Origin: Apostichopus japonicus
Lineage: Eukaryota; Echinodermata; Holothuroidea; Aspidochirotida; Stichopodidae
DNA length: 64,000 bases
Assembly (NCBI RefSeq): GCF_037975245.1
Contig: NC_092569.1
Span: 32,058,668-32,122,667 of the forward strand
Reading direction: 5' to 3'
In this document: in pieces, positions 21,301 through 22,412 of the stretch
How the letters are laid out: every line of letters starts with the position of its first letter
Position numbering within the stretch: position 1 is the first letter of the stretch
Notes under the pieces: generated by a model
Seen by the model: the letters and a program-made list of their open reading frames with translations, nothing else
Databases searched by the model: none
What the model was told of the DNA's origin: nothing
Made by a program: the position numbers and the translations under genes

Positions 21301-22412
21301 TCTAATTCATTTTTGTTTTGTGAGGAGATGGTTTTTGCAGCAAATTGCAATTATTCCTTTGTTAGCAATAATAACAGGTTAAATTACTCAGGACTAGCTT
21401 TTTCAATCATACCCTTGCTTTCCTAAAATGACACAGTCCAGCCCCCCCCCCCCCCCCCGCCACGGCGTCCATCCTCAATCAGCTTCGAGAAGAGAATAAG
21501 TTAAACAATGTGGTACAAAATAAAACAAGCAAAGAGTTGAATAAATGTTAACTTGATAACTTGCAAATTATGCAGACTATGCAAATTAAATTACACATAC
21601 TATTATTCAATAAATGATAAGATTTGACACCGAAACACACAAGAAGACAATAACTCGAGTTTTGATAGACTAGGAAACCACTCAGTTGTGGACTTAGAGA
21701 AATAGTATACATATATAATGAAACAATATTATAGTAAAACAATGTCAATAAATATAACATAAAGAGCGATATTAACAACACTAGTAACCAAACTCTAGTT
21801 TAGTTTCCCCATTTGTATGTGGCTCGTGCTGTGGCACTGTATTTCAAACGAAACAAAAACAAAATTGTATAATAACTTCCTTGCAAAGACAAAATACCTA
21901 CTCATGTATCTTAAATTTTGAACACAAAAAACAACAAAATACGCAGAATTGACGTTTTCATCTTGGTAGAACAAAAACGCACTGCCCTCTAACGTGTATC
22001 CGATGTTGGATTCTTTCAAAATTTATAAATTGACCAGTTTATGTACTCTTTCTCGTTTGATGCAGATCATGATCGTTTGTCTGGTAGCAACAATAAACAA
22101 TTCAGTACAAAAGACCGGGACTACGATGGATGGAGCAGCTACGACTGTGCTGAGAAACACAGAGGAGCCTGGTGGTTCTACGATTATTATGACTGTGAAC
22201 GTGATTATTATTTGTGTCGGTCATCCTGTCCCAGTCATAGTTATTATTGTGAAATGTTTCCCGTTGGCAGCGATAACTGTGTTCAATGCGCTAATGCTCA
22301 CCTCAACGGAGACTACGACGGCTATACTCGAGGAACGAACATCTTCTGGAATGATCTTAGTGGAAACGATTGTGGTATACGATACACAGAGATGAAAATA
22401 CGGCCGGTATAG
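6250..22412 (+). CDS. Gene A: secreted half-FReD / TIL / VWC-EGF x3 / FReD mosaic protein, complete, 10 exons, 693 aa
   Basis: Coding exons: 6250-6315, 14494-14524, 15571-15743, 16098-16362, 17239-17450, 17890-18099, 18692-18901, 19502-19807, 20070-20331, 22066-22412. They sum to 2082 nt with consistent phases and one stop (TAG at 22410). Seen: signal peptide (residues 1-22), linker, partial fibrinogen-related domain (about 44-178), TIL cysteine-rich domain (179-249), three VWC/EGF-like cassettes (250-446) and a full FReD (about 451-693). Family knowledge: FReD proteins (ficolins, tachylectins, FREPs) are secreted lectins that bind acetylated sugars or proteins; TIL/VWC/EGF modules typify extracellular adhesive or matrix proteins. 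Inference: secreted pattern-recognition or adhesive lectin. The start is chosen because it gives a signal peptide, has A at -3 and G at +4, and the exon is conserved in gene C. Every intron is GT-AG; the acceptor before exon 4 is AAG. Exact ligand unknown; transcript not verified. Confidence 0.85.
6335..8317. repeat. ~1 kb tandem duplication in gene A intron 1
   Basis: 6335-7318 and 7330-8317 are diverged direct copies, sharing for example a CATTGAATATCT start and ending with GAACAGACATTTTAT ... AAAGCAACATCT. Gene C has one copy (about 43767-44745), which retains the ATGTTTTCA stretch of the second copy. Confidence 0.75.
12588..13782. mobile_element. hAT-like non-autonomous element (TATCGG-rich inverted ends)
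   Basis: The left end AGTGTTGCGCCGATCATCG and the reverse complement of the right end (AGTGTTGTGCCGTTATCCAC) match, and both subterminal regions are rich in CGATAT/ATATCGG, as in hAT-family elements of many animals. About 1.2 kb, no transposase frame. A clear 8 bp target duplication was not found. In unit C only the right end survives, ending at 49056. Confidence 0.45.
14494..14524 (+). CDS. Gene A exon 2: 31-nt linker micro-exon
   Basis: A tiny exon between a TTATTACACAG acceptor and a GTACGT donor. It enters in phase 0 and leaves in phase 1, which is exactly what is needed to join the signal exon to the FReD exon; it encodes IIFSAEGRSS plus the first base of a glycine codon. Gene C has the same exon at 49762-49792 with one residue changed (IIVSAEGRSS). 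It probably carries the signal-peptidase cleavage region or a short spacer. The small size makes it easy for gene finders to miss. Confidence 0.7.
15090..15287. repeat. (TAA)n microsatellite, about 66 triplets
   Basis: Almost pure ATA/TAA repeat over nearly 200 bp in intron 2 of gene A. It yields long poly-Ile and poly-Leu reading frames that are artefacts. Unit C has lost it at the same place (near 50360). Confidence 0.95.
15299..15490. repeat. Interspersed element attached to the (TAA)n tract
   Basis: Directly follows the microsatellite with TATAGCGCTTTTCAACC and CAAAGCGCTTACAGACG, then a TTACCCCTGGTCAATGATA stretch. Such AGCGCTTT elements next to TAA repeats occur in several marine invertebrates (general knowledge). 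A diverged copy without the microsatellite lies at about 50485-50645 in unit C. Confidence 0.5.
15571..15743 (+). CDS. Gene A exon 3: N-terminal part of first FReD
   Basis: Phase 1 in, phase 0 out. Residues 33-90 include YPRDC, a GVYLIKP strand, EAYC and the diagnostic DLDTGGWT at the exon end, the classic N-terminal FReD signature (DC...G.Y.I.P......v.C.m...GGWT). Cysteines 48, 55 and 80 are visible, and there are N-glycosylation sequons in NNTS. The donor is GTATGG. Strong match to the first FReD exon of ficolin-like genes. Confidence 0.85.
16098..16362 (+). CDS. Gene A exon 4: middle part of first FReD
   Basis: Begins VLQRRRSDSVNFNRSWKDFR, the FReD core (viQrR.dgsvdF.r.W.dYk.GFG...gEfWlGn...). 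The section ending in LGSFARS completes the middle subdomain, then a GTAAGT donor in phase 1. A normal FReD continues into a C-terminal exon with the calcium site and binding pocket; here the next exon is a TIL domain, so this first FReD is about 135 residues and stops before the pocket. The acceptor is AAG in A and B but CAG in C. Confidence 0.85.
17239..17450 (+). CDS. Gene A exon 5: TIL (trypsin-inhibitor-like) cysteine-rich domain
   Basis: Residues 179-249. The spacing WCPANE, TCERTC, TCIS, CVCVGEYLR, QCIPLNQCNC follows the TIL pattern (C..ne....C...C...C......C.C..g.....g.Ci....C.C), as found next to VWD, VWC or EGF modules in zonadhesin-, mucin- and SCO-spondin-like proteins. Phase 1 in, phase 0 out; acceptor TTTTCTAG, donor GTCAGT. 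N-glycosylation sequon NET at the start. The trailing ADKRSVLG joins the VWC-like start of the next exon. A role as a protease inhibitor is possible but nothing here shows it. Confidence 0.8.
17890..18099 (+). CDS. Gene A exon 6: VWC/EGF-like cassette 1
   Basis: 70 codons, phase 0 at both ends, so it can be gained or lost without shifting frame. Begins EGDFYVN, then CTQRSTCRNN (VWC/TILa-like) and an EGF-like half ending GVRKCYCNPNYQGDGVTC with the GDG turn typical of EGF modules. The exon finishes NCFVDDKGSVLG, echoing the end of the TIL exon, so each cassette rebuilds the same junction. Donor GTCAGT. Confidence 0.8.
18692..18901 (+). CDS. Gene A exon 7: VWC/EGF-like cassette 2
   Basis: 70 codons, phase 0/0, very close to exon 6. 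Starts EGHFYINSSCTWKSTCRNN and ends HNCFVDDKGSVLG. It sits 802 bp after exon 6, and the flanking intron sequence is also repeated, so it arose by tandem duplication of an exon-intron block. It has no intact equivalent in gene B or C. Confidence 0.8.
19502..19807 (+). CDS. Gene A exon 8: VWC/EGF-like cassette 3 fused to the start of the second FReD
   Basis: 102 codons, phase 0/0. The first ~56 residues are a cassette (EGLFYINSRCTQKSTCRNN ... EGDGVTC). After a short RRAQ linker it continues as FReD: DCYDLYVSG, YTIYPDDWPSGVQVYCEMES and GGWT at the GTGAGT donor. Cassette and FReD start share one exon, which fixes this cassette as the one that cannot be lost; it is present in all three genes. Confidence 0.85.
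20070..20331 (+). CDS. Gene A exon 9: middle part of second FReD
   Basis: Starts VIQRRSSASVNFYLGWTDYK and continues GFGNKNQDHWLGNKYIHSMT, TYQLRIDL and a YYAIYSTFSI strand, ending LSVGSYSGNS in phase 1 before GTGAGT. Same phases (0 in, 1 out) as exon 4, so the two FReDs come from duplication of the same exon set. Homologous exons: 27997-28258 (B), 53727-53988 (C). Confidence 0.85.
20332..22065 (+). other. Gene A intron 9 (1.7 kb)
   Basis: Separates the middle and last FReD exons and has equivalents in B (28259-29976) and C (53989-56004). Conserved stretches across copies include the area near 20570-20720, but the reading frames seen there in B and C are broken in A. A poly-C run lies at about 21443-21459. 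No coding exon recognised. Confidence 0.5.
22066..22412 (+). CDS. Gene A exon 10: C-terminal FReD with Cys-rich insertion
   Basis: Residues 579-693. KQFSTKDRDYDG is the FReD calcium-site region (D-x-D-x-D-G), then DCAEKHRGAWW, and the end DCGIRYTEMKIRPV is the typical FReD C-terminus. Between GAWWF and HLNG, where canonical FReDs have about 8 residues, there are 40 residues (22179-22298) rich in Tyr and with six Cys. The exon has eight Cys in all, an even number in every copy. Stop TAG at 22410-22412. A pocket insertion of this kind is unusual for the family as I know it. Confidence 0.85.

Follow-up and report, generated by a model that had tools for sequence, protein, structure and literature searches.

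Background

Lectins built on the fibrinogen-related domain (FReD) occur widely as recognition proteins, and their acetyl-binding pocket is conserved. In one of them, FIBCD1, the acetyl group is held beside Cys414 of the Cys401-Cys414 bridge (PMC3908420; the literature is cited here and below from partial texts of the papers). In this study I analyse a 64,000-nucleotide stretch of the genome of the sea cucumber Apostichopus japonicus (hereafter the window; C9:32,058,668-32,122,667 of the searched assembly, which comprises 671,581,487 bases in 35 contigs). A gene with several exons is present three times in the window, as copies A, B and C. Its last exon codes for an FReD P-subdomain, as judged by translation, Pfam and homology, and in each copy this exon carries an insertion rich in cysteine and tyrosine, referred to as the loop. 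With a probability that I put at about 0.6, I infer a recognition function for it, in which it would be the variable element of a lectin repertoire encoded in the germline.

Molluscan fibrinogen-related proteins (FREPs) carry one or more N-terminal immunoglobulin (Ig) domains, and the SpTransformer (Sp185/333) proteins of sea urchins are of an unrelated protein type that is not known to have a disulfide loop. The molluscan FREPs have been reviewed as an FReD family that forms a diversified repertoire (PMC13428168). In A. japonicus itself the FREPs are expanded and clustered, some of them in tandem, and they are raised during visceral regeneration (PMC5638244). Cysteine-rich bovine antibodies show a preference for even cysteine totals (PMC7366855), and the bovine ultralong third heavy-chain complementarity-determining region (CDR H3) draws on a D segment in which 38 of 48 codons are one step away from Cys (PMC5994613).

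The FReD genes described here are, like the published A. japonicus FREPs, expanded and clustered, and the loop exons probably belong to the same genes, judging by these shared traits rather than by a gene-by-gene match. Neither a cysteine loop nor loop variability is mentioned in the partial text of that paper (PMC5638244), and no description of the loop was found in the titles or abstract openings of the open literature searched. No Ig domain is found among the six translated stretches that were scanned. A difference from the molluscan FREPs is that the diversity resides in an FReD loop, with no sign of somatic change in this one assembly, which could hardly show it. The likeness to SpTransformer is that of an echinoderm multigene family with diversified effector proteins (PMC13428168). 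The nearest functional parallel is the bovine cysteine-rich antibody repertoire, as an analogy and not as a relationship: in both cases cysteine-diverse disulfide loops would be set on a constant scaffold, with even cysteine totals preferred, whereas the sequences are not homologous and the diversity consists of germline copies here and of somatic change there.

The loop in the window

The last exons of the three genes and their insertions are located as follows; exon borders were read from the sequence (for instance the acceptor ag of the last exon of gene A).

22066..22412, + strand: last exon of gene A, FReD P-subdomain with Cys loop, to the stop codon (translation, Pfam PF00147)
22179..22298, + strand: hypervariable insertion of gene A, 40 amino acids, 6 Cys, C6C3C6C9C2C (translation)
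29977..30335, + strand: last exon of gene B, FReD P-subdomain with Cys loop, to the stop codon (translation, Pfam PF00147)
30090..30215, + strand: insertion of gene B, 42 amino acids, 6 Cys, C8C3C6C9C2C (spacing from translation)
56005..56351, + strand: last exon of gene C, FReD P-subdomain with Cys loop (translation, alignment with A and B)
56118..56231, + strand: insertion of gene C, 38 amino acids, 6 Cys, C4C4C5C9C2C (translation)

With 35.7 and 33.7 bits, the last exons of A and B score above the curated PF00147 cut-off of 22 bits. The last exon of gene C alone gives no Pfam match at E<=0.1; it matches the solved FReDs of tenascin-R and ficolin-2 and aligns with A and B. An earlier, sequence-only reading of the window had reported a six-cysteine insertion in each copy, at a place where only some eight residues separate GAWW from NLNG in canonical FReDs. 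Both statements are borne out: the insertions have 40 (A), 42 (B) and 38 (C) residues with six Cys each, in frames that stay open up to KIRPV or KIKPV and a stop, and the short canonical spacing from WW to LNG is seen in the tenascin-R and ficolin-2 alignments as well as in two FReDs of the same genome, L129 and L130. The eight cysteines that it counted per exon are also there in all three copies, as the six of the insertion, the Cys of the upstream DCAE and one near the C-terminus. By profile alignment, the last of the six (C-x4-LNG) falls on the Cys of NCH in tenascin-R and is the canonical FReD cysteine, so that the novelty consists of the five other loop cysteines and the C-terminal one.

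Other parts of that reading need qualification. The flanks, described as almost invariant, are mostly invariant among the three window copies. Exactly six cysteines is correct for these copies and not for the genome, where the loop has two to eight. The loops are indeed difficult to align in part, except that C-x9-C-x2-C and FPxG are common to all three. The middle exons, said to differ little, are less divergent than the last exon (81-84% against 58-66% amino acid identity) without being near-identical.

Family size and samples

Using the last exon of gene A as a query against its own genome, I obtained 150 scored homologous exons among 759 first-look candidates; 146 of the 150 are located on one 37-Mb chromosome, C9, mostly clustered near 17.9-19.2, 29.3-30.4 and 32.0-35.8 Mb. 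The FReD profile yielded 2731 first-look candidates in the genome, and scoring covered the best 150 of them. With L130, a canonical P-subdomain exon, as the query, at least 150 scored exons including itself were obtained, aligned over 207-264 nt each, and since these alignments do not exceed 264 nt, the exons concerned are without the long loop. The sets of 150 loop exons and 150 canonical exons are both lower bounds. Judged from these alignments, the long loop marks a subfamily and not FReDs at large, and an ordinary conserved FReD insertion is ruled out by the loop length range of 26-48 residues together with the at least 150 canonical exons without it. The insertion noted in the window is real, a family trait across the genome, ordered and unusual. 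Searching viral contig and genome contig collections with the gene A query (A1, tblastn) gave no relative.

For the analyses below, 130 of the 150 scored matches were used (20 were not fetched). Thirteen of them failed the intact test, namely ten loci with an in-frame stop in the loop (eight distinct ones, as L023/L024 and L079/L080 are counted once each), L084, which has no stop other than the one that opens its match as the first codon, and L100 and L109, which have no usual C-terminus. The 117 intact exons represent 113 distinct coding sequences, with identical sequences within the pairs L005/L006, L040/L041, L073/L074 and L091/L092; leaving out L104 and L106, which come without the stretch holding WW, 111 exons were analysed.

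Two features of the clusters stand apart. Several loop exons of identical or near-identical sequence recur about 0.68 Mb apart, at C9 34.645-34.71 and 35.323-35.391 Mb, which is either a recent segmental duplication or an uncollapsed haplotype. A subgroup of exons at C9 18.0-18.5 Mb (L071-L074, L077, L082 and L105) shares a nearly invariant loop (GELNDD...), unlike the hypervariable clusters.

A ladder of cysteines

Measured from WW to the residue before LNG, the loop is 26-48 residues long in the 111 exons. It contains two cysteines in 8 exons, three in 2, four in 36, five in 12, six in 49, seven in 3 and eight in 1. The total per exon is even in 92 and odd in 19 of the 111, a count in which the first residues of some exons precede the match and are not included. 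Two positions are present throughout (111/111), C6 at -4 and C4 at -16 to -18, while C5 is found in 101 exons and the extra C-terminal Cys in 110. The Cys upstream of WW is, like C6, present in all 111, and the two align with NCA and NCH of tenascin-R, the canonical P-subdomain pair. The two-cysteine class has C4 and C6 only, the four-cysteine class has C3 and C5 in addition, and the main six-cysteine class C1 and C2 as well; a small second class has C2 and a Cys adjoining C5. Presence or absence is joint for C1 and C2 in 94 of the 111 exons and for C3 and C5 in 106, and 14 of the 15 exons that have C2 without C1 possess another extra Cys.

A quick tree computed only from flank sequence requires the cysteine total to change 27 times, 16 times by one, 9 times by two and twice by four. 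Nearly all single steps (15/16) are on tips, whereas even steps account for 6 of 7 changes on internal branches and for 5 of 20 on tips (Fisher p=0.009). This fits disulfide pairing, with odd intermediates being weeded out. The five other loop cysteines and the C-terminal Cys could form three new disulfides, and at least one of these, from C4 to the C-terminal Cys, probably leaves the loop. The disulfide-stabilised mini-domain of the earlier reading is supported as far as totals are mostly even and the cysteines conserved, in the form of a 2, 4, 6, 8 ladder rather than a fixed six-cysteine unit. Given the probable C4 bond, the pairs need not all close within the loop, and the sixth Cys is the canonical one.

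Position at the ligand site

The Cys pair that flanks the loop is homologous to the Cys401-Cys414 pair of FIBCD1 (by alignment with tenascin-R). As the upstream Cys and C6 align with the canonical pair, the loop enters directly before the ligand-site Cys, and its assignment to the recognition subdomain holds on the profile alignment and the FIBCD1 site. In FIBCD1 the ligand-site Cys is followed by His415. At this position all 111 exons have one of A, T, G, S and N, never His, and L129 and L130, two canonical FReDs of this genome, have Asp. The DxD motif of the calcium site is found by a simple pattern in 104/111 exons, with the first Asp replaced in 6 and no match in 1. The family thus has the FReD sequence, the P-subdomain Cys pair and DxD in common with ficolins, tachylectin-5A (TL5A), FIBCD1 and the tenascin FReD, with the ligand site in the same subdomain (PMC3908420), but differs from them in its additional cysteines and in being longer by about 18-40 residues ahead of the ligand-site Cys, and from the acetyl-binding lectins of the ficolin/TL5A/FIBCD1 type in the absence of the pocket His from all 111 exons. 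From its aligned position, the loop is expected to lie over the usual pocket or to alter its shape.

Divergence of loop and flanks

I compared the exons in two sets of disjoint pairs. In the first, 47 of 50 pairs chosen by flank similarity, those with an intron difference below 0.25, introns differ by 0.072 after Jukes-Cantor (JC) correction, which applies to all values of this set; nonsynonymous (dN) and synonymous (dS) divergence are 0.036 and 0.084 in the flanks and 0.123 and 0.112 in the loop, with a ratio of loop dN to intron of 1.71 (1.34-2.17). In the second, 41 pairs chosen by far-intron similarity, the intron value is 0.059, flank dN 0.051 and dS 0.119, loop dN 0.151 and dS 0.157. Choosing pairs by flank or by far intron biases the flank-to-intron comparison in opposite directions, and both sets are given. 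Across them, loop dN is about three times flank dN and 1.7-2.5 times intron divergence. In plain nucleotide differences within the first set, the loop reaches 0.111, while the flanks have 0.047 and 0.041 and the 100 adjoining bases on each side 0.061; the loop exceeds the upstream flank in 40 pairs (5 in the opposite direction) and the downstream flank in 37 (9 in the opposite direction). The earlier expectation that the insertion evolves faster than its flanks is confirmed by this threefold dN and by a higher proportion of nonsynonymous differences (pN) in the loop in 37 of the 41 pairs, which rules out that loop and flanks evolve alike.

In the 41 pairs, dN/dS is 0.96 (0.80-1.18) for the loop, 1.24 (1.02-1.52) for its non-Cys codons and 0.43 (0.36-0.50) for the flanks, and the Cys sites of the loop have a dN of 0.026 and a dS of 0.319, compared with a dN of 0.176 at its other sites. 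Mean entropy in 21 exons of equal loop length is 1.17 bits in the non-Cys loop columns versus 0.30 and 0.36 bits in the flanks. Compared with the remainder of its exon the loop is hypervariable, and its cysteines are strongly kept, which argues that it is translated. The high synonymous divergence of the loop points to local mutability or sequence exchange.

One source of such exchange would be gene conversion, in which the loop evolves fast by shuffling of segments among paralogues more than by new mutation. Among the 92 exons with a loop match above 80%, the best loop partner is not the best flank partner in 41, and several pairs show intron and exon divergences that do not agree. However, in 25 discordant rows the loop matches are 80-97% identical, so that exchange, if any, was mostly not recent; nearest neighbours of such short loops are noisy; and the 26-48 residue range and the TAT runs described below also need slippage or mutation. 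As the principal cause, I consider a conversion mosaic rather unlikely.

Tyrosine codons as raw material

Tyrosine makes up 22.0% of loop residues (7.2% in the flanks) and cysteine 13.5% (3.0%). The tyrosine codon is TAT in 703 of 893 cases (79%) in the loop and in 231 of 573 in the flanks, T occupies 58% versus 27% of third codon positions, and the longest pure TAT run has ten units in the loop compared with two in the flanks. Six examples of TAT runs are situated near the loop start, where C1 and C2 sit in six-cysteine copies. Non-Cys codons that are one step from Cys are enriched in the loop (1839/3516, 52%) over the flanks (2387/7721, 31%), a likeness to the bovine ultralong CDR H3 as its D segment is described in the partial text (PMC5994613). 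In the eight distinct broken copies the premature stop (TAA or TAG) is always within the loop; the share expected from codon content is 0.42, and the chance of all eight is about 0.001 if the copies are independent. An in-frame TAT microsatellite with single-base steps would explain the TAT runs, the Tyr and Cys content and the loop stops together, and would be the source of loop length, of tyrosines and, by such steps, of cysteines. Between close pairs, 4 of 134 changed TAT sites differ by TAT to TGT/TGC, so that Cys gain by this path has been rare in recent time. A microsatellite of the same triplet family, 69 copies of ATA, is found upstream of gene A at window 15091-15297.

The main rival, neutral triplet-repeat drift under disulfide constraint, starts from the same material. 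A TAT run would expand and mutate in a tolerant surface loop without any role in recognition, and even cysteine numbers would be kept only because unpaired cysteines misfold. The TAT runs, the T-rich third positions, the raised loop dS with a loop dN/dS near 1 and the confinement of TAA and TAG stops to the loop all accord with it. It is opposed by the fixed cysteine framework (C4 and C6 in 111/111 exons, C5 in 101/111), the even steps in 11 of the 27 changes on the tree, the retention of FPxG in 21 exons with 43-residue loops, and a flank dN/dS of 0.43, which suggests that the genes are in use. I regard it as unlikely, though it is the strongest of the alternatives.

The composition of the loop also suits an adhesive or matrix role, with Tyr- and Cys-rich loops cross-linking, by di-tyrosine and disulfide, in a secreted matrix, a clot or regenerating tissue. 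The Tyr and Cys content, the TIL-like/EGF/FReD architecture and the rise of A. japonicus FREPs in visceral regeneration (PMC5638244) are in line with this, but a cross-linker would need no diversity among copies, and the loop columns are far more variable than those of the flanks (1.17 against 0.30 and 0.36 bits). This role appears improbable, more so than the other two alternatives.

Weighing the recognition loop

Several results weigh against a variable recognition loop. Compared with the upstream intron, the loop is more divergent in 29 pairs and less divergent in 17 (Wilcoxon p=0.04), and for the downstream stretch the numbers are 25 and 22 (p=0.14). Loop dS is itself raised, to 1.56 times the intron value in the 47 pairs and to 2.6 times in the 41 (where flank dS is 2.0 times); with a loop dN/dS of about 1, this leaves room for relaxed constraint with high mutability, for gene conversion or for misalignment, which could explain much of the pattern. 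The interval of the non-Cys dN/dS includes 1 in the 23 pairs of equal length, 1.26 (0.87-1.94), and in the 17 six-cysteine pairs (0.90-1.60). Positive selection beyond relaxed constraint in the loop is thus suggestive only, and as the sole cause it is ruled out by the raised dS and the dN/dS near 1. As for the cysteines, odd totals occur in 19/111 exons, and co-variation on independent tree pairs is not significant, with only 3-4 supported pairs; these tree-independent pairs were dropped as evidence, the supported changes being too few. For the last exon, AlphaFold supplied with the three copies of the window gave a model with a mean predicted local distance difference test score (pLDDT) of 31, and at this low confidence the cysteine pairing rests on sequence co-variation.

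The recognition-loop reading would work as follows. The insertion would be what varies among the members of a family of fibrinogen-related lectins encoded in the germline, which I assume from its domain types to be secreted, no signal peptide having been identified. Entering immediately ahead of the Cys that forms a wall of the acetyl-binding site, the loop would cover or reshape the pocket, while the surrounding frame of calcium-site motif, canonical Cys pair and flanks would be held by selection. It would grow by slippage through in-frame TAT (Tyr) triplets and be altered by point changes, and cysteines would arrive in pairs and tie it into a compact disulfide knob. The predicted pairing is the canonical C0-C6, C4 to the extra C-terminal Cys, C3-C5, and C1-C2 (or C2 with another partner). 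With more than 100 clustered copies, a single scaffold would then display surfaces of many different shapes, whose most likely use is the recognition of non-self or of other surfaces.

Other exons and surroundings

The remaining exons of the three genes are given below, from the last exon towards the gene start.

A 20070..20336 (+), B 27997-28263, C 53727-53993: open frame with FReD middle exon (homologous among the copies and with the first middle exon, which Pfam matched)
A 19466..19840 (+), B 27425-27769, C 53155-53481: open frame with TILa, EGF_3 and FReD start (Pfam on A; B and C by homology)
A 17145..17537 (+), B 26206-26454, C 51777-52193: open frame with TIL-like exon (Pfam on A; conserved among copies)
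A 16086..16403 (+), B 25063-25362, C 51254-51553: middle exon of the first FReD (Pfam on A; B and C by homology)
A 15549..15758 (+), C 50700-50933: probable N-terminal exon of the first FReD (homology, open frames)

From these open frames, the gene seems to start with a second FReD upstream of the TIL-like exon. Its N-terminal and middle exons were found in A and C and its middle exon only in B, where no N-terminal exon was found; its P-subdomain exon was found in none of the three. The probable N-terminal exon of gene A is 36-40% identical with the start of the FReD in B and C. Splice phases, judged by eye from the sequence, permit a direct join of the first FReD to the TIL-like exon. Against the same PF00147 cut-off of 22 bits, the first middle exon of gene A scores 82.4 bits (E=5e-23) and the FReD-start exon 37.7 bits, and the TIL-like exon matches PF01826 at E=0.014, under the curated cut-off. 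Pfam found only FReD, TIL, TILa and EGF_3 in the six translated stretches (four of A and one each of B and C), and the window had no hit when scanned for Rfam families and tRNAs.

Genes A and C are in duplicated segments (window ~360-15700 and 37900-50800) at an offset of ~35-38 kb; several blocks in them, 275-300 nt long, are 87-94% identical. Two 22-base tandem arrays, at window 39686-39825 and 40354-40499, have consensus units that are near reverse complements of each other. Elsewhere in the assembly, the 31-kb contig C29 holds COX1-like pieces at 14745-31219, apart from the mitochondrial contig C35 (16,099 bases); they are either a mitochondrial duplicate or a nuclear copy. The COX1 of C35 translates to STNHKDIG, the usual COX1 sequence, under code 9 (echinoderm and flatworm mitochondria) and to STKHKDIG under code 5.

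Implications

It is possible, though I put it forward tentatively, that sea cucumbers possess a germline repertoire resembling antibody loops, in which one FReD scaffold in more than 100 clustered copies carries mostly different, disulfide-knotted loops that are fed by TAT triplets and gain their cysteines in pairs. The series of two, four, six and eight cysteines offers natural material on stepwise disulfide addition and on loop growth driven by triplet repeats, and the family could supply natural binders that carry a disulfide loop on a stable scaffold. If the recognition reading is true, the family would be an independent counterpart of the bovine cysteine-rich CDR H3 on a non-immunoglobulin scaffold, and a variable disulfide loop on the FReD pocket would give an echinoderm recognition diversity without somatic rearrangement.

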